Of a stretch of DNA of 64,000 bases, positions 6,283-58,355 are shown piece by piece. The stretch is from Sediminibacterium sp. GTDB lineage: Bacteria; Bacteroidota; Bacteroidia; Chitinophagales; Chitinophagaceae. The stretch is taken from NCBI RefSeq assembly GCF_019264485.1, contig NZ_JAHVAA010000011.1, forward strand, positions 620,001-684,000. Reading direction: 5' to 3'. How positions within the stretch are numbered: position 1 is the first letter of the stretch; each line of letters starts with the position of its first letter. Under the pieces are notes generated by a model that was not told the DNA's origin, searched no databases, and was given only the letters and a program-made list of their open reading frames with translations. The translations under genes and the position numbers were made by a program.

Positions 6283-7215
6283 TTGAAATTAATAACCGCT
6301 TTTTTACAGTTGGTGCGCTGGCCCAATCTGCTGTTTATCATGCTCACTCAGCTTTTGTTTGAGTATTGTATTTATGAGCGTATTTATGGCGCAGCAGAAG
6401 GGTTGAGTCAATACCAGTTCTGGTACATTATAATTGCTTCTGTTTTTATTGCTGCAGCCGGAAATATTATTAATGATTATTTCGACCTGAATATCGATCA
6501 GGTAAATAAACCTGATAAGGTTGTGGTAAACGTTGTTATCAACAGGCGTTGGGTTATCTTCTGGCATATGTTACTGAGTATGCTGGGTTTGTTTTTTACG
6601 GTAGTAGCCTTACCTGTATCACTTTACTGGCACCTGGTACTGGCCAATATTGGGAGTGTGTTATTACTCTGGTTTTATTCTACCAATTTCAAAAAGCAAT
6701 TACTGGTTGGTAATATTGTGATCTCCCTGCTTACTGCATGGGTAATATTAATCCTGTTTTTTGCGAAACAACCATTGCAGATCGAACATCTTTTATCTGC
6801 CGGGCATAATGAAATCCGTTTTTTCCGTCTTGCCATGCTTTACGCGTCTTTTGCATTTGTGATTTCACTTATCAGAGAAGTGGTAAAAGATGTGGAAGAT
6901 ATGGAAGGCGACAGAAAATATGGCTGTAAAACATTACCTATTGTTTGGGGCGTTCAGGCAGCTAAAATATTTGTAGCAGTGTGGCTCGTGGTTCTCATAG
7001 CTGCGCTGACTATTTTACAACTCTATGTATTGCCTCTTGGTTGGTGGCATAGTGCCTTATACTGTCTGATTGCCATAATAGTACCTTTGATCTGGATTTT
7101 CATACAGCTCTTTAAAGCGTCTACTCCTGCCGATTTCCATCGATTGAGCTCGGTTATAAAACTGGTTATGCTTACAGGTATTTTATCGATGGTATTTTTC
7201 AGGATATATGAGTGA
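6283..7215 (+). CDS. UbiA-family prenyltransferase (geranylgeranylglycerol-phosphate synthase-like)
   Basis: An integral membrane aromatic/polyprenyl transferase of 310 residues with about eight or nine hydrophobic helices. The two Mg-diphosphate motifs are present: NDYFDLNID (N64-D72) and DVEDMEGDRKYG (about 205-216). Bacteroidota members in the DUF2520-kdsC-maf neighbourhood are usually named geranylgeranylglycerol-phosphate geranylgeranyltransferase, but the acceptor has not been shown for most of them. Translation appears to start at a TTG (6283), because no ATG precedes the first helix (the next M is residue 20). A GTGAGTA-type heptad array overlaps and follows the stop. Confidence 0.85.
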   Translation: MKLITAFLQLVRWPNLLFIMLTQLLFEYCIYERIYGAAEGLSQYQFWYIIIASVFIAAAGNIINDYFDLNIDQVNKPDKVVVNVVINRRWVIFWHMLLSMLGLFFTVVALPVSLYWHLVLANIGSVLLLWFYSTNFKKQLLVGNIVISLLTAWVILILFFAKQPLQIEHLLSAGHNEIRFFRLAMLYASFAFVISLIREVVKDVEDMEGDRKYGCKTLPIVWGVQAAKIFVAVWLVVLIAALTILQLYVLPLGWWHSALYCLIAIIVPLIWIFIQLFKASTPADFHRLSSVIKLVMLTGILSMVFFRIYE

Positions 7216-7294: not shown

Positions 7295-7378
7295 ATTGAC
7301 CATTGACCATTGACCATTGACCATTGACCATTGACCATTGACCATTGACCATTGACCATTGACCATTGACCATTGACC
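7295..7378. repeat. Perfect tandem array of 12 ATTGACC heptamers
   Basis: Twelve identical 7-bp copies (84 bp) with no spacer end three bases before the maf ATG. On the plus strand TGA occurs every 7 bases, so all three frames are closed. On the minus strand all three frames are open, which produces the spurious MVNGQWS-repeat ORFs of the track. The perfect identity implies recent or ongoing slippage. The word (reverse complement GGTCAAT) is shared with hairpin arrays at 34640 and 36554. Confidence 0.97.
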
Positions 7379-7381
7379 ATC

Positions 7382-8029: not shown

Positions 8030-9298
8030 ATGAACGAGCGTTTATTACAGTTTATCTGGCAGTTCCAGCATTATAATACCAGGGAACTAACCCTGTCTTC
8101 CGGAGAACCCCTGAAAATTATTTCTCCAGGTTCATGGAACCATCACCAGGGGCCTGATTTTTCTTCAGCTAAAATCAGGGTCGGTAATACTATTTGGGCG
8201 GGTAATATTGAATTACATATACTGGCATCAGACTGGTACAAACATGCGCATGATGATGATCCTAATTATCAAAATATTATTCTGCATGTAGTATGGCAGG
8301 AAGATGCAATGGTAAAAGACAGGTTTAATCAACCCGTACCCACACTTGTTTTATCGGGCAGGATATCTGGTTTATTACTCGATCGATACGGACAGATGAT
8401 GGACACTGTGAGACAGGTTCCCTGTCATCATTTTTTACCCGGAGCCAATGAACTTACCTGGTATTCATGGAAAGAAAGACTGATGGTAGAAAGACTGGAA
8501 AGGAAATCGGGTATTATTATGAAACAGTTGCAGGAAACGGGAAATCACTGGGATGAAGTTTTCTGGCGACAACTGGCCATGGGTTTTGGCTCAAAAACCA
8601 ATGCTGCTTTTTTTGAACAGGTAGCAAGAAGCCTTCCTTACAGCATATTACAAAGACACCGGAATATACCTGATGAACTGGAAGCACTTTTGTTTGGACA
8701 GGCGCAATTATTAAACAAAAAAAGAACAGATACTTATCCGCAGAAACTTGCGAAAACATACCTGCATCTTCAAAGAAAATACAAATTGATAAGTGCCGGC
8801 GGACAACCCGCTTTTCTAAGGATGCGTCCTGCGTCGTTTCCCACCATCAGACTCTCACAATTAGCCATGCTCATACACCTGCGTGAAAACCTGTTCTACC
8901 AGGTAAGAAATATTGAAACGATAGACAACCTTGTGCAACTTTTTCACGTAAAAACAAGTCAGTACTGGAACCAGCACTATCGTTTTGATGAACCTGCAAC
9001 CCAATCGCTGAAATGGGTTGGCAGGCAAATGACTGTTCACCTGCTCATCAATTCAATAGTGCCCATGGTTTTTACGTATGGTCTTGAGATGAAGCAACAG
9101 GCATATAAAGACAAAACCCTGCAATGGCTTTATTCATTGGAAGCAGAGCAAAACAGGATTACAAGTTACTGGCAGTCTGCAGGTATTCATAACCGATGTG
9201 CACTCGATTCACAATCGCTGATAGAACTCAATACGCAATATTGTGTTAATAAACGTTGTCTCGATTGCGCCATAGGCAACAAACTGTTGAGCCAATGA
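8030..9298 (+). CDS. DUF2851 family protein
   Basis: A 422-residue protein of a Bacteroidota-enriched family of unknown function. The N-terminal third (SPGSWNHHQGPDFSSAKIRV, then GNIELHILASDWYKHAHDDD) is the most conserved region of DUF2851; the aspartate, glutamate and histidine residues there recall a nuclease-like core, but this is only an impression. The C-terminus has a small cysteine cluster (C-x5-C-x2-C in YCVNKRCLDCAIG) that could hold a metal. There is no signal peptide, so it is probably cytosolic. A TATTTTTC close to the -7 consensus lies about 30 bases upstream. It converges on osmC. Confidence 0.85.
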   Translation: MNERLLQFIWQFQHYNTRELTLSSGEPLKIISPGSWNHHQGPDFSSAKIRVGNTIWAGNIELHILASDWYKHAHDDDPNYQNIILHVVWQEDAMVKDRFNQPVPTLVLSGRISGLLLDRYGQMMDTVRQVPCHHFLPGANELTWYSWKERLMVERLERKSGIIMKQLQETGNHWDEVFWRQLAMGFGSKTNAAFFEQVARSLPYSILQRHRNIPDELEALLFGQAQLLNKKRTDTYPQKLAKTYLHLQRKYKLISAGGQPAFLRMRPASFPTIRLSQLAMLIHLRENLFYQVRNIETIDNLVQLFHVKTSQYWNQHYRFDEPATQSLKWVGRQMTVHLLINSIVPMVFTYGLEMKQQAYKDKTLQWLYSLEAEQNRITSYWQSAGIHNRCALDSQSLIELNTQYCVNKRCLDCAIGNKLLSQ

Positions 9299-9317: not shown

Positions 9318-9369
9318 TGCAACTTGTAGCTTGTGACTTGCAGCTTCAAGCCACAAGCTACAAGCTGCA
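9318..9369. repeat. Heptad hairpin, CAAGCTA class
   Basis: Arms 9318-9335 and 9352-9369 are complementary over 18 bp with one mismatch (core CTTGTAGCTTGTG / CACAAGCTACAAG). Each arm is built of 7-bp words (CTTGTAG, CTTGTGA; CTACAAG, CTGCAAG). It lies between the convergent DUF2851 and osmC genes and could act as a shared transcript end, but no T tract follows. The same words build the larger hairpin at 13582. Confidence 0.85.
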
Positions 9370-9384
9370 AGAGATTCTGCCTTA

Positions 9385-10687: not shown

Positions 10688-10812
10688 AGACCGGAAGTCG
10701 GAAAGTCCGAAAGAAGGTGCTCTGATATGCAGGAGACTTGTAAAACAATTACAGGTACTCGTTAATTAAACTTTCAATCTTTCGGACTTTCGGACTTCCC
10801 GACTTCCGGTCT
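10688..10812. repeat. Heptad/octad hairpin, GGAAAGTC class
   Basis: The left arm 10688-10714 (27 nt) and right arm 10778-10812 (35 nt) are complementary throughout, except that the right arm has one additional 8-bp unit of the word AAGTCCGA. The words are AGACCGGAAGTCGG and AAAGTCCGAAAGA. The loop is 63 nt. It lies 14 bases before the lipA start. The one-unit difference between arms indicates gain or loss of whole repeat units. Confidence 0.88.
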
Positions 10813-12619: not shown

Positions 12620-13576
12620 ATGAGCAAAAAAATATACTTCCTGCTGTTTCATGTAATTCTTATTTCTGGATTACAGGCACAAATAAAATGGATAAATGTC
12701 GACTCGCTGTTTCAGCCCTTACCATCATCCGTTCATGTGTACAAAACCACTGATTTTTTAGATGGCAAGTTCAATATAGCCTATTATGTGAGTGTTGACC
12801 TGAACGATAAAAAACTTGATCTGACAACAGCGGTAGGCAATGGTAAAAGATATACGCCTGCAGCATATTTTGAGCAACAAAATCAACCACTACTCGTTAT
12901 GAACACTACTTTCTTTGAATTCGTTCATAACAGTAACCTCAATGTGGTCATCAACAATGGTAAACTGTTATCGTATCAACAACATACAATTGCAGGCAGG
13001 GGAAAGGATACACTTACTTACCGCCATCCTTTTGGCAGTGCAATTGGTATCAGTAAAAAGAGAAAGGCAGATATTGCCTGGCTTTACACCGATACTGCTC
13101 AACTGGTAGCTTATGCAAGTCAGACGCCTGTTTCCTTTTTTAAAGACAGTATTGCAGATCCGCCAGCAAAGGAAATGCTGAAGAAAGGGGTATTCAAAAA
13201 ATGGAAAATGAAAACGGCTGTTGGGGGAGGCCCCGTACTGGTACAAAATGGTGAAATCAGTATCTCTAATAACCAGGAAATAAAATTTGCAGGTAAGGCT
13301 ATCGATGATAAACACCCGCGTTCAGCGATGGGTTACACAAAAGAGGGCAAACTTATATTCATGGTAATTGAAGGACGGTTTCCGGGAAAAGCAGAAGGAG
13401 CCACACTTACACAAACAGCTCAGTTGTTAAAAGATATTGGCTGCTTAGAAGCCCTTAACCTCGACGGTGGTGGTAGCAGTTGTTTACTCATCAACGGCAA
13501 AGAAACCATCACCCCAAGTGATAAAACAGGACAAAGGGCGGTGCCGGCAGTGTTTGTGGTTAAGAAAAAATTGTAA
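12620..13576 (+). CDS. Phosphodiester glycosidase (NAGPA/DUF2233) family protein
   Basis: An exported protein of 318 residues. After a signal peptide (MSKKIYFLLFHVILISGLQA) comes a phosphodiester glycosidase domain of the NAGPA type: VMNTTFFEF near the first third, GGGPVLVQNGE in the middle, and the signature ALNLDGGGSSCLLINGK near the end. Human NAGPA uncovers mannose 6-phosphate tags; bacterial members act on cell-envelope or exopolysaccharide phosphodiesters, and the substrate here is unknown. The track's start at 12494 overlaps the upstream gene and lacks the signal peptide; the ATG at 12620 is chosen. The 3' end is followed by the best heptad hairpin of the window. Confidence 0.87.
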   Translation: MSKKIYFLLFHVILISGLQAQIKWINVDSLFQPLPSSVHVYKTTDFLDGKFNIAYYVSVDLNDKKLDLTTAVGNGKRYTPAAYFEQQNQPLLVMNTTFFEFVHNSNLNVVINNGKLLSYQQHTIAGRGKDTLTYRHPFGSAIGISKKRKADIAWLYTDTAQLVAYASQTPVSFFKDSIADPPAKEMLKKGVFKKWKMKTAVGGGPVLVQNGEISISNNQEIKFAGKAIDDKHPRSAMGYTKEGKLIFMVIEGRFPGKAEGATLTQTAQLLKDIGCLEALNLDGGGSSCLLINGKETITPSDKTGQRAVPAVFVVKKKL

Positions 13577-13581
13577 ATCTT

Positions 13582-13687
13582 AAGCAATAAGTTACAAGCT
13601 ACAAGCAACAAGCCTCAAGCTGCAAGAAAATAAATGTTTATCAACACAGATCAACTTGTAGCTTGAGGCTTGTTGCTTGTAGCTTTT
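13582..13687. repeat. Heptad hairpin, AAGCTAC class, with T tract
   Basis: The left array 13582-13626 has six full 7-bp words plus part of a seventh (AAGCAAT, AAGTTAC, AAGCTAC, AAGCAAC, AAGCCTC, AAGCTGC, AAG). The right arm 13655-13685 is complementary to the last 31 bases with a single mismatch, with the variant words in mirrored order. The loop is 28 nt and the right arm runs into TTTTTT. It lies between two convergent genes and probably terminates the plus-strand transcript. Confidence 0.92.
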
Positions 13688-13692
13688 TTCCA

Positions 13693-14670
13693 CTAATTCT
13701 TCTCCCACACCAATGCAGAAGCACCTAAAATTGCCGCATCAGATTCCTTCAGATGACTTACCAGTATTTTTACTTTGTTCTGGAACACCTGAATCAGGTT
13801 GTCTTCCATGCTTTCGCGGGTAGGCTTTAAAATAAGGTCACCGGCTTTGGTAAGACCACCGAATAATACGATGGCTTCCGGACTTGAGAACATCACAAAA
13901 TTGGCAAGGGCAAGACCTAATATTTTACCGGTATATTCAAAAATTTCTTTGGCCAGTTCATCACCTTCCATCGCAGCGTCATATACTTTTCTGGAATCGA
14001 TTTCATCTTTTGGTACATTTCTCAACCAACTGGGCTGATCGCTTTTCTCCAGTAGTTCCAGTGTGGTAAGGCGTACACCCGTTGCTGATGCATAACTTTC
14101 CAGCGATCCGCGTTTACCGGTACCATCGTGTAATCGTCCATCAGGAATAATGATCGTATGTCCCAACTCACCTGCAAAACCATCATGACCATATACCAGC
14201 TTTCCATTGGCAACAATGCCACTGCCTACACCAGTACCGAGGGTAATCATAATAAAATCGTTCATACCCTGTGCTGCGCCATACATCATTTCGCCAATGG
14301 CGGCCGCATTGGCGTCGTTGGTAAGTGTTACAGGTAATTTAAATTTATCTTCTATGAGTTTGGCCAGTGGAATAATACCTTTCCAGGGAAGATTAGGGGC
14401 ATATTCAATAGTACCGGTATAAAAATTTCCATTAGGGGCGCCAACGCCAATACCTTTCATTCTTCCAATACCACCAGCTTTGGCAATCAATTCAGATAAT
14501 AGACTGTGTAATTCATCAATGAATGAGTCTACTTCTGCATGTTTGCGGGTCGACATTTCGTTGGAGAATAAAACATTCCCAATCCGGTCTACAATACCAA
14601 ATTTGGTTCCTGTACCTCCAATATCAATACCTATTGCAAGTGGTTCTAAAGATGTTGTATTGCTAGCCAT
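13693..14670 (-). CDS. ROK family sugar kinase (glucokinase-like)
   Basis: A 325-residue actin-fold kinase, most likely phosphorylating glucose at the start of glycolysis or glycogen synthesis. The phosphate-1 loop is GIDIGGTGTKFG (14-25), the catalytic aspartate lies in LTNDANAAAIGE (D119), and the phosphate-2 loop is TLGTGVGSGI. GELGH (H171) is present. The usual ROK zinc motif C-x-C-G-x-x-G-C-L-E is replaced by DGTGKRGSLE, so all three zinc cysteines are missing although the ESYAS that follows is intact. It is 27 bp downstream of a sugar transporter gene, which supports a sugar-uptake operon. Confidence 0.87.
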   Translation of the reverse strand: MASNTTSLEPLAIGIDIGGTGTKFGIVDRIGNVLFSNEMSTRKHAEVDSFIDELHSLLSELIAKAGGIGRMKGIGVGAPNGNFYTGTIEYAPNLPWKGIIPLAKLIEDKFKLPVTLTNDANAAAIGEMMYGAAQGMNDFIMITLGTGVGSGIVANGKLVYGHDGFAGELGHTIIIPDGRLHDGTGKRGSLESYASATGVRLTTLELLEKSDQPSWLRNVPKDEIDSRKVYDAAMEGDELAKEIFEYTGKILGLALANFVMFSSPEAIVLFGGLTKAGDLILKPTRESMEDNLIQVFQNKVKILVSHLKESDAAILGASALVWEKN

Positions 14671-14697
14671 ATCAAATCAAATTTGTCGTCCACAAAA

Positions 14698-16305
14698 TTA
14701 ATGTCCACCGCTTACTTGCGCATCGAAATCAAGTCCCTGTGATTGTAATACTTTTTTCATTTTAATTGCCAGGAAACCAAGGAAAGCAAAACAACCGGCA
14801 GCAAGTAAATAAGACCGATGCATACCAACCGATTCAAGATCGCCGATAGCACCCTGTAATGGAGGAATAATGGCACCTCCGAGAATCATCATAATCAGGA
14901 ACGCCGAACCCTGGCTGGTGTATTTACCAAGTCCGCCAACGCCTAATGAGAATATGCAGGGCCACATCACAGAACAGCAGAGTCCGCCAGCCATTAAGGC
15001 ATAAACTGAAACAATGCCACTCGTAAACACACCTACCAACATGGCCACTGTTGCCAGTATGGAAACAGCCAGCAATGTTTTTGCAGGTTTTTCCTGTCCG
15101 TAGAAAAAAGCAATCAGCGTAATGATAATACATACAGCATATCCCCATAAATCACTGATATCACTTCCATAGAGCGAGTTTACACCCAGTACTACCATAA
15201 AAGCAATAAAAGGAACCACAATGGTAAGTATCCTTCGCATGCTGGCCGATACATTAAAAACACTAATGGCTCCCGTCCACCGGCCAATCATCAGGCTCCC
15301 CCAATAAAGGGAAATATATTTCGAGATCATGCTTTCATCAAGTCCCATTTCAGTGAGATAACCGGGGGTTTTTAACAGCGCACCAAAATTATTGTCGATG
15401 GTAACTTCCACACCTACATATACAAAAATGCCAATCATCCCATAAATTAATTGTTGGTATTTCATGGCACCCCAGCCTGCATTGTTTTTAACGGCACTGG
15501 CATTTGAATAAAATAAAATTCCTACAACCGACACCAGCGCTATTAATAATAAAGTGAGTTTAGGCACTTCGGTTAATTGTCCGACTACAATAATGGCACC
15601 GATCAATAAAGTCATGATGGTTAAAGAAGCGGCTGCTTTATTTGCTTTTTCAAATTTCTCGTCATTCTTGCCATCGGGTAATTTGGAGAAGGCAAAAAAC
15701 AATGCTACCAATGCAAAGACTCCAGCTACAATCAGGTATAAGACATTGATATTTGTAACAGTTACTTCGCTTTGTTCACCGCCAATAGAACCAAAAAGGA
15801 AAAAACTAACGATAATAGGTCCCAGTGTGGTACCCAGTGAGTTTACTCCTCCTGCCAGGTTAAGTCGGTGTGCACCTGTAGATGCATCACCTAAAGAGAT
15901 AGCAAAGGGTTGAGCTGATGTTTGTTGAAGGGAGAATCCGAGTGCCACTACAAAAAAGGAAGCCAGTAAGGCAGGAAATGAATTGGCATTTGCAGATGGA
16001 ATAATCAGTAATGCACCTGCTACAGATATCCATAATCCATAAATAATACCTTTTTTATATCCGATTTTGTTGAGGATATCATAACCCAAAACGTTAGAAG
16101 ATATAAACAGAATCAGTGATCCTATAAAATAAGCCCCATAGAATGCGGAGCCGATTAATTGAGATTGGAACTGGTTGAGCTGAAAATGTGTTTTACAGAA
16201 TGGAATCAGGATACTGTTTGAAGCTGCAATAAATCCCCAGAAGAAAAAAACGATGACAAGTGTTGCAAGTGCACTTGTATTAGTGGGTTGTTTTGGTTGG
16301 GTCAT
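14698..16305 (-). CDS. Sugar MFS transporter, FucP/GluP type
   Basis: A cytoplasmic-membrane sugar:proton symporter of the FHS family. The 535 residues hold at least 12 hydrophobic helices. The family signature is clear: QQTSAQPFAISLGD followed by RLNLAGGVNSLGTTLGP matches the Q-x-x-A-N-P and R-L-N-L-x-x-x-x-N-S-L-G-T motifs of FucP, GluP and NagP. It is about 60-100 residues longer than FucP, with extra hydrophobic segments between residues ~230 and 290. The adjacent ROK kinase suggests glucose or a related hexose as substrate. It is divergent from glgA with a 125-bp shared upstream region. Confidence 0.87.
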   Translation of the reverse strand: MTQPKQPTNTSALATLVIVFFFWGFIAASNSILIPFCKTHFQLNQFQSQLIGSAFYGAYFIGSLILFISSNVLGYDILNKIGYKKGIIYGLWISVAGALLIIPSANANSFPALLASFFVVALGFSLQQTSAQPFAISLGDASTGAHRLNLAGGVNSLGTTLGPIIVSFFLFGSIGGEQSEVTVTNINVLYLIVAGVFALVALFFAFSKLPDGKNDEKFEKANKAAASLTIMTLLIGAIIVVGQLTEVPKLTLLLIALVSVVGILFYSNASAVKNNAGWGAMKYQQLIYGMIGIFVYVGVEVTIDNNFGALLKTPGYLTEMGLDESMISKYISLYWGSLMIGRWTGAISVFNVSASMRRILTIVVPFIAFMVVLGVNSLYGSDISDLWGYAVCIIITLIAFFYGQEKPAKTLLAVSILATVAMLVGVFTSGIVSVYALMAGGLCCSVMWPCIFSLGVGGLGKYTSQGSAFLIMMILGGAIIPPLQGAIGDLESVGMHRSYLLAAGCFAFLGFLAIKMKKVLQSQGLDFDAQVSGGH

Positions 16306-16430
16306 AACAATCGGTCGTTTAATGTGGGCTGTAAAATAACGAGAAAAATCAGCCTGAAAAATTTTAAAGTAGAATTTGACAGTACCATTTTACTTCCTAA
16401 CTTGAAAGCAAATCAGACAAACTGCTGTTC

Positions 16431-17846
16431 ATGGAGATCATTCATGTGAGTGCCGAATGTTATCCGGTAGCCAAAGCTGGCGGACTGGGAGATGTGGTAG
16501 GGGCACTTCCTAAATACCAGGTTAAAGCCGGCCATATTGCCAAAGTGGTGATGCCTATGTACAGGACCAAGTTCCTGTATGAAAATGACTGGACGGTTGA
16601 TTTTAAAGGGCAGGCGAATTTAGGGAACTGGTTTTTTGATTATACAGTAATCAAGGAAAGCAGTAATAAACTGGGATATGATCTTTACCTGATCGATATC
16701 AATGGACTCCTCGACCGACAAAAGATTTATGGTTATGATGATGATGCGGAAAGATTTACCGCCTTTCAGATTGCTTTTGTTAACTGGATGATTCATTGGG
16801 AACACCAGCCCGATGTAATTCATTGCCATGATTATCATACCGGACTTATTCCTTTTATGATGCAGTATTGTTATGATTATAACGGGCTGAAACGTATTCC
16901 TTCCGTTATTACCATTCATAATGCACAATACCAGGGGTGGATGGGATGGGAGAAGAGTCGTTATATACCACGCTGGGATCTCTGGAAAAGAGGTATGCTC
17001 GACTGGAATGACAACATTAATCCATTGGCATCGGGAATAAAATGCGCCAGTAAGGTAACTACGGTAAGCTGGAGTTATATGGATGAACTCAGGATAAGCT
17101 CAAATGGCCTTGAGAAATTATTTGAATTTGAAAGAGGTAAATGTGTAGGTATATTGAATGGTATAGATAATGAAGTATGGAACCCTGCCACAGATAAATA
17201 CCTCGAACATCATTTCAGTGTTAAAAATGTGGCGACAGGAAAGAAGAAAAATAAAGCTGTTTTATGTGAACGTTTTGGTCTTGATGCAGATAAGCCATTA
17301 TTCGTTTTTATCGGGCGACTGGTAGGAGAGAAAGCTGCTGATATTTTACCCTATGCCATTCGACTGGCGATTGAACAAACACAGGGGCAGGCCAGTTTTC
17401 TGGTATTGGGAAGTGGTGAAACAGCAGTAGAATGGGAGTTTCAGCAAATGACAGAACCTTATAAAGGTGTTTTTAATGTGGTGATTGGCTATGATGAAAC
17501 CCTCAGTCATTTAATGTATGCCGGTGCAGATTTTCTGCTCATGCCCAGCAGGGTAGAACCTTGTGGATTGAACCAGATGTATTCCATGCGTTATGGTACT
17601 GTACCAATTGTAAGGAGTACAGGAGGTTTGCAGGATACGGTGGTAGATATGGGCGATCCGGATGGTTTTGGTATCCGCTTTAATCATGCAACACCTGAAG
17701 ATGTGAACTATTCCATCGGCAGGGCTGTTTCAGTTTATCAGGACAGTACACATATGGAATGGATGCGGAAGCGTATGATGCAGATAGATCATAGCTGGGA
17801 GAGTACGGTGGATGAGTATACCAATGTGTATAAAAGCCTGAAATAA
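16431..17846 (+). CDS. glgA: Glycogen synthase
   Basis: A GT5 enzyme adding glucose from ADP-glucose (or UDP-glucose in some Bacteroidota) to growing alpha-1,4-glucan. The 471 residues begin with the ADP-glucose-binding loop (AKAGGLGDVVGALPKY, K-x-G-G-L type), contain the FIGRLVGEKAADI turn between the two Rossmann domains, and the C-terminal acidic motif PSRVEPCGLNQMYSMRYG with the retaining GT5 glutamate. The protein is of normal length. It is followed 79 bp later by glgC; a 20-bp imperfect hairpin fills that spacer. Confidence 0.95.
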   Translation: MEIIHVSAECYPVAKAGGLGDVVGALPKYQVKAGHIAKVVMPMYRTKFLYENDWTVDFKGQANLGNWFFDYTVIKESSNKLGYDLYLIDINGLLDRQKIYGYDDDAERFTAFQIAFVNWMIHWEHQPDVIHCHDYHTGLIPFMMQYCYDYNGLKRIPSVITIHNAQYQGWMGWEKSRYIPRWDLWKRGMLDWNDNINPLASGIKCASKVTTVSWSYMDELRISSNGLEKLFEFERGKCVGILNGIDNEVWNPATDKYLEHHFSVKNVATGKKKNKAVLCERFGLDADKPLFVFIGRLVGEKAADILPYAIRLAIEQTQGQASFLVLGSGETAVEWEFQQMTEPYKGVFNVVIGYDETLSHLMYAGADFLLMPSRVEPCGLNQMYSMRYGTVPIVRSTGGLQDTVVDMGDPDGFGIRFNHATPEDVNYSIGRAVSVYQDSTHMEWMRKRMMQIDHSWESTVDEYTNVYKSLK

Positions 17847-32998: not shown

Positions 32999-33004
32999 TC
33001 AGGT

Positions 33005-33067
33005 AGTTGATAGTCCATGGTCCATAGTAGATTCCTGCTATGGACCATGGACTATCAACTATGGACT
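33005..33067. repeat. Heptad hairpin, GTCCATG class (perfect 23-bp stem)
   Basis: The arms 33005-33027 and 33038-33060 are perfectly complementary over 23 bp with a 10-nt loop. Heptads on the left are AGTTGAT, AGTCCAT, GGTCCAT; on the right ATGGACC, ATGGACT, ATCAACT, plus an unpaired extra ATGGACT (33061-33067). It lies 7 bases after the GIN-domain gene stop. No long T tract follows. Confidence 0.93.
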
Positions 33068-34639: not shown

Positions 34640-34712
34640 GTGAATGTTGAATCGTCAATCGTGAATGGTCAATAGTGAATATAATCGTACCTATTCACTA
34701 TTGACCATTCAC
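34640..34712. repeat. Heptad hairpin, GTSAATN class (perfect 21-bp stem)
   Basis: The left array has six 7-bp words at 34640-34681 (GTGAATG, TTGAATC, GTCAATC, GTGAATG, GTCAATA, GTGAATA). The last three are perfectly complementary to 34692-34712, with a 10-nt loop. The words match those of the 36554 hairpin and, as reverse complement, the ATTGACC array before maf. Confidence 0.93.
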
Positions 34713-38870: not shown

Positions 38871-38898
38871 AATTTTCAAATTTTCAAATTTTCAAATT
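38871..38898. repeat. Octamer repeat AATTTTCA (3.5 copies) in the purM leader
   Basis: Three tandem AATTTTCA units plus AATT (38871-38898) end three bases before the purM ATG. It is a leader or translation-start element candidate. The same octamer in the other orientation (ATTTGAAA twice) lies in the fdx-iscX spacer, and both iscX and purM are preceded by the shared string CAAATTAACAT. Confidence 0.8.
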
Positions 38899-58226: not shown

Positions 58227-58355
58227 TTACTTCTTTTTAGCGGCTTTTTTAGCAGCTTTTTTAGGAGCAGCTTTTTTAGCAGCTTTTTTAGGAGCAGCTT
58301 TTTTAGCAGCTTTCTTTGGTGCAGCTTTCTTAGCAGCTTTTTTTGCAGTTGCCAT
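58227..58355 (-). CDS. Tiny Lys/Ala/Pro-repeat histone-like protein
   Basis: A 42-residue protein too short for the ORF track. It reads MATA then KKAA units punctuated by proline (P-K-K-A-A, three times) and ends KKK: about 19 lysines, 17 alanines, 3 prolines, no acidic residue. This is the composition of histone H1 C-terminal tails and bacterial Hc1/AlgP-like repeats, so DNA or RNA binding is likely. Support for a real gene: an ATG, a complete frame without any other residue type, its own terminator (58173-58193), and a -33/-7 promoter-like pair upstream. TopA in this window ends in a similar tail. It follows rpmA. Confidence 0.75.
   Translation of the reverse strand: MATAKKAAKKAAPKKAAKKAAPKKAAKKAAPKKAAKKAAKKK

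Follow-up and report, generated by a model that had tools for sequence, protein, structure and literature searches.

The hairpin locus and its neighbours

The window analysed here, a stretch of 64,000 nucleotides, is on sequence grounds Sediminibacterium (Chitinophagaceae) DNA, and its ROK kinase shares 96-97% identity with proteins from S. goheungense and from MAG UBA12329. This kinase gene and a glycosidase gene converge on a spacer of 116 bases, which holds a long hairpin built from variants of the heptad AAGCNNC. A second member of the same family lies in another convergent spacer of the window. The features are as follows:

9322..9372, no strand assigned: second AAGC family member, in a convergent spacer (stops at 9298 and 9385), nearly loopless and of opposite polarity
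12620..13576, plus strand: upstream gene, phosphodiester glycosidase (Pfam PF09992), stop at 13576
13582..13595, plus strand: unpaired left heptads AAGCAAT (13582) and AAGTTAC (13589), outside the stem (sequence, repeat search)
13596..13626, plus strand: left arm, AAGCTAC (13596) AAGCAAC (13603) AAGCCTC (13610) AAGCTGC (13617) AAG (sequence, repeat search, fold)
13627..13654, no strand assigned: loop of 28 nt; with respect to the genes on either side, it is inverted in the nearest relative (locus L031 of genome G102)
13655..13685, minus strand: right arm, read as complement from 13685, AAGCTAC AAGCAAC AAGCCTC AAGCTAC AAG (sequence, repeat search, fold)
13686..13690, plus strand: T run immediately 3' of the stem, about six T including the last arm bases (sequence), a putative U-tract
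13693..14670, minus strand: convergent downstream gene, ROK family sugar kinase (Pfam PF00480), end at 13693

A repeat search delimits two arms of 31 nt each, with 30 of the 31 positions paired (97% complementary). The first-pass annotation of this DNA had noted the same words in the same order in both arms with a single mismatch in 31 bases, and two additional heptads on the left beyond the stem. The repeat search and the sequence confirm the former, and the latter occupy 13582..13595, outside the arms. The sole mismatch falls in the fourth word, TGC on one side versus TAC on the other. As RNA, the hairpin is predicted to fold with -57.3 kcal/mol (z -10.5 against 200 shuffles). The stem and its T run may end transcription of the glycosidase gene. 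A scan for Rho-independent terminators gave no canonical site at this hairpin, where a T run is present on the plus strand and the loop measures 28 nt versus the short loop (3-8) of such terminators; Rfam gave no match above the gathering score in the window.

Several other repeats of short unit length were observed in the window. At 7295-7380, a perfect array of 12.3 ATTGACC heptads reaches to or next to the start codon, at about 7383, of a gene with an N-terminus that resembles a Maf-type protein, and 77 CATTGACC-type matches in the genome are related to it. An inverted repeat with 8-nt units (AGACCGGA/AGTCGGA/AAGTCCGA) and mirrored variants lies at 10688-10812, its right arm being one unit longer. 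Mirrored variants are also found in the perfect 24-bp inverted repeat at 33004-33061 (heptads TAGTTGA TAGTCCA TGGTCCA TAG). At 34640-34712, three of five heptads (TGAATCG, TCAATCG, TGAATGG and others) form a perfect 21-bp stem, so that the array exceeds the stem as it does at 13582-13687. An 8-nt array, 3.5 copies of AATTTTCA, stands shortly upstream of an ATG at 38871-38898; period 8 ranks second among the repeat units of Chitinophagaceae spacers. Finally, a tandem 27-bp repeat beginning with AGCAGCTTTTTTAGG covers 58234-58348; on the minus strand it would code for a tail rich in Lys and Ala that perhaps resembles histone H1.

Dispersed heptad hairpins and word replacement

Beyond what the first-pass annotation had noted, the AAGCNNC word is widely dispersed in this genome, which was sampled as stretches around pattern matches, with genes outside the window called by a home-made codon-usage caller. 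Runs of three consecutive AAGCNNC units, with up to 2 mismatches, number 15 in the window, where 0.33 would be expected. The 3.64-Mb genome contains 130 matches (58+72) to AAGCNNCAAGCNNCAAGC with up to 1 mismatch, and the reversed-pattern control gave 0. In the stretches fetched, which do not include every match, AAGCNNC matches form at least 34 clusters. Within the units, positions 1-4 and the last are nearly fixed, and positions 5 and 6 vary freely. These arrays share with heptanucleotide simple sequence repeats the 7-nt unit, the intergenic position and the over-representation relative to other unit lengths, but their units are not the perfect or near-perfect ones of such repeats. Arm length and words differ from copy to copy; the arm words are common to different loci, whereas the loops differ without relationship between loci. 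In four genomes the purine-rich arm stands 5' in 55 copies versus 4 of the opposite polarity. Across Chitinophagaceae the word is sporadic, being present in 15 of 150 genomes and 14 of 103 genera. In genome G241, 31 matches to the reversed control pattern (CGAACNN heptads) were observed, which represent an independent heptad word. Other words with the same architecture are dispersed as well: CATTGACC-type triplets give 77 matches in this genome and 0 with the control. Slippage or templating alone leaves the presence of one word in more than 34 clusters unaccounted for.

Across Chitinophagaceae, repeats in spacers are mostly of period 7, whatever their word. In the intergenic DNA of 80 Chitinophagaceae loci, exact runs of at least 12 matches number 26 at lag 7, 21 at lag 14 and 9 at lag 21, and between 0 and 5 at the other lags from 4 to 20; coding DNA of ten times that amount contains 2 lag-7 runs, and shuffled DNA contains 0. 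By a more tolerant score, 40 spacers bear repeats, of period 7 or 14 in 34 of them, of period 8 in five and of period 4 in one, and shuffled spacers give none. A strong stem is present in 59% of the period-7 spacers versus 10% of the others.

The words themselves are short-lived. In relatives, the spacer 3' of the ROK gene carries heptads as different as AAGCNNC, CACGCNG-like, GAGCTNN, AATTAAN, GTGAAGA and TCATAAC. Two relatives (loci L033 and L034) share 94.9% identity along the 7 kb that lead to this spacer and 91% beyond it, and the element itself has no convincing alignment; at about 6978-7113 the two hold hairpins of unrelated heptad words at one site, between flanks about 91-95% identical. 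Among the orthologous spacers read, after a search of 147 genomes of the genus, the same element is kept only in G072/G102, a single close relative, so that the loop inversion described below and the AAC change may each have run in either direction. Replacement of words and whole elements between near relatives is fast, and the constant feature is period 7, not the word: the word at a site may change completely between genomes about 95% identical.

Word classes were also followed in the Pinibacter group, where genomes G299-G301 contain from 194 to 601 matches to GARARTT heptad triplets each. At two loci of this group both arms switch word class together (TTGAAAR versus TTGAGAG). A genome-wide word switch was considered and rejected, as GAAARTT and GAGAGTT classes coexist among the matches listed for G300 and G301.

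Shared words in the two arms and inversion of the loop

The first-pass annotation had argued that independent expansion on each side could not produce the mirrored order of heptads at 13582-13687. This proved too strong for one hairpin. When the heptad order of one arm is shuffled, an equal score is reached in 16% of cases (p 0.16), and in local alignment the two arms score 29 with each other against a cross-locus mean of 22.4, with 1 of 36 cross pairs equalling or exceeding the first score. The mirrored order of a single hairpin is therefore weak evidence, because common words let arms of different loci pair almost equally. Alignment favours arms from one locus over arms from different loci by a small margin only (88 of 20,000 permutations; z 2.6 in a second test), and such unweighted tests, dominated by the fixed heptad positions, were rated weak. 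A z of 13.7 from a heptad-order permutation of AAGC arms taken with their flanks was discarded, since the shuffling mixed flank and array.

A clearer picture emerged from the variable two-letter words alone, compared in 54 non-redundant hairpins of four genomes against 20,000 within-genome shuffles. Both arms carry the same rare word 20 times, where 6.75 would be expected; ordered word pairs that include a rare word are found in both arms 14 times, against 2.79; and any ordered word pair 32 times, against 13.6. None of the 20,000 shuffles reached any of these three values. With the locus described here omitted, rare-word sharing is 17 and ordered rare pairs are 12. Both the cut-off for rare words (8%) and the weighting of words were set after the data had been seen, though the any-word pair test holds too. 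The excess of shared rare words and ordered pairs means that mirrored variants characterise the family as a whole. Sharing of multi-base variants by the two arms of an inverted repeat beyond chance, as template switching leaves it, is accordingly found in the 54 hairpins taken together, and not in the hairpin at 13582-13687 taken alone (p 0.16).

Orthologous spacers give a mixed answer to the comparison that the first-pass annotation had proposed, namely whether changes in one arm are matched in the other. In 16 orthologous pairs with G102 and G101, weighted by word rarity, the arms of a hairpin agree better with each other than with the opposite arms in the other species (sum 31.9; sign-flip p 0.007), but without weighting the effect is absent (p 0.44). 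The weighted result is support rather than proof, because the weighting was chosen after the data had been seen. At one locus, L145 (2523), the left arm TA-TT-CG-TA is kept in both species, and the right arm reads TT-CG-TA in this genome only. For the hairpin at 13582-13687, the only close ortholog, L031, has one arm partly decayed.

The same ortholog differs in the orientation of its loop. Positions 13596-13672 of the window align with 6057-6133 of L031 in direct orientation (88%), whereas the flanks, 12689-17535, align with 7044-2207 in reverse orientation (84%). Compared with L031, the loop gives z 12.3 when inverted and z 1.4 when direct; the five other loops that align significantly are all direct. 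By these alignments, the loop is inverted relative to the genes between the window and its nearest relative, which is the inversion of the spacer between arms that template switching would leave in relatives. Of the first-pass interpretation, which is right in part, the proposed alternatives, inverted duplication of an already diverged array or arm-to-arm correction through the hairpin, are supported by the word sharing in the family and by the inverted loop.

Proposed template switching, its rivals and related repeats

Template switching across the fold-back of heptad arrays grown by slippage is probably the best explanation of this dispersed family of intergenic hairpins. Homogenised arms and inverted spacers are the two traces that have been described for template switching at inverted repeats, in genes of yeast and in rRNA hairpins that include those of bacteria (PMC8604942, PMC8794818). 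Copying from arm to arm is supported because arm homogenisation and loop inversion are this published footprint. The polymerase mechanism itself we infer. A short heptad array would lengthen or shorten by slippage, and in many bacteria heptads are the most frequent of the long simple repeats; during replication, the nascent strand would switch template across the fold-back, so that one arm would be rewritten as the complement of the other. Such a switch would produce mirrored word variants, leave part of the array unpaired and at times invert the loop.

Selection for an RNA hairpin, either a terminator or a 3'-end stabiliser, would instead let the arms mutate independently and retain only the compensating changes. 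The stem is very stable and, at this locus, followed by a T run. In addition, strong period-7/8 stems of the wider Chitinophagaceae sample avoid divergent spacers (0 of 23, against a background of 96 of 482), although these loci share ancestry and are not independent, and the purine-rich arm stands 5' in 21 of these 23 stems as it does in 35 of 46 ordinary strong stems. However, the hairpins of Sediminibacterium are as frequent in divergent spacers as the background predicts (6 of 34; background 26 of 133), and five of those so placed have Pfam domains confirmed on both sides. Restriction to gene 3' ends, as expected of a terminator, thus holds for the copy at 13582-13687 but not for the family, and T runs are not general, with 3.8 T against 3.2 in the 10 nt after the stem. 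Termination is not the general role of the family, because its hairpins also occupy divergent spacers. Moreover, selection for pairing predicts neither an inverted loop nor the ordered sharing of rare words, and we consider it unlikely as the origin of the family.

If the inverted arms recombined or underwent gene conversion, through RecA or a site-specific invertase, the loop would flip and the arms would be homogenised, leaving an identical footprint of inverted loop and matched arms. Both the arms, at about 20-31 bp, and the loop, at about 28 bp, are short by the standards of homologous recombination. With one inverted loop in six alignable loci, there is no sign of a frequent switch, and this route seems to us distinctly improbable.

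We would give a little less credence still to a broader proposal, that period-7 hairpins in Chitinophagaceae spacers are self-renewing. The architecture would be inherited and the word replaceable; words would spread between loci and switch as a class, either through template switching in trans or through dedicated machinery that sets the 7-nt unit and the purine-rich 5' arm.

Insertion of whole hairpins, in the manner of REP/REPIN or MITE-type mobile repeats, is very unlikely. It would be consistent with the dispersal over more than 34 clusters, with the predominance of one polarity and with the single Y1_Tnp (TnpA-REP-like) gene of the genome, but the copies have unrelated loops, vary in arm length and words, and are replaced at orthologous sites by other words of the same architecture. 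The Y1_Tnp (RAYT-like) gene lies at G000:C11:31609-31947 (L244), with a AATTTGGA octad inverted repeat about 1.5 kb off, and no AAGC heptads were found within about 1.5 kb of it. A REP/REPIN identity was disfavoured, as there is neither a constant palindromic unit nor heptads beside this gene. Chance, with arms drawn from a pool of common words (TA alone makes up 28% of them, 130 of 465) and this locus as the best match of many, would agree with the order permutation of the single hairpin, but it is refuted at the family level by the rare-word and ordered-pair sharing, the loop inversion at this locus also stands against it, and we regard it as hardly credible.

Several described repeats and mutations resemble this family. 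The heptameric GGGAATC repeats of Xanthomonas form 70-75 close inverted pairs per genome, with possible stem-loops (Rehm et al. 2015, PMC4692102), and like the AAGC family they are dispersed intergenic 7-nt arrays that change fast in length and sequence between near relatives. Their units are G-rich, near-perfect and studied as G-quadruplexes, whereas AAGC units are degenerate, with two free positions; the AAGC family differs further in its mirrored arm variants, its inverted loop and the unrelated words at the same sites in relatives. An excess of unit length 7 among long simple sequence repeats of bacterial genomes, with polymerase slippage as the proposed cause, is attributed to Mrazek et al. 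(2007) in PMC4679880 and PMC4692102; as described there, those repeats are perfect tandem ones, whereas the AAGC arrays are imperfect and arranged as hairpins. TAACTGA heptamers, known from Beggiatoaceae, Cyanobacteria and some Bacteroidetes (PMC4679880), are likewise intergenic and sporadic. Unlike the AAGC family, they repeat a single invariant word in direct orientation, mostly immediately ahead of start codons, and are not hairpins. The template-switch mutations cited above share arm homogenisation and spacer or loop inversion with the AAGC family; those published cases concern single genes and rRNA, whereas here the process would recur in a dispersed tandem-repeat family whose word variants serve as markers.

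On the template-switching explanation, the hairpin is a natural record of DNA polymerase template switching and not a new type of gene. It is also a caution that mirrored, covarying stems in such spacers do not by themselves prove a selected RNA structure. The variable heptad positions are natural tags, and therefore arm-to-arm copying can be read directly from genome sequences. These tags let one ask how often template switching, independent of selection, maintains bacterial hairpins, and the heptad hairpins offer material for studying the preference for a 7-nt unit.
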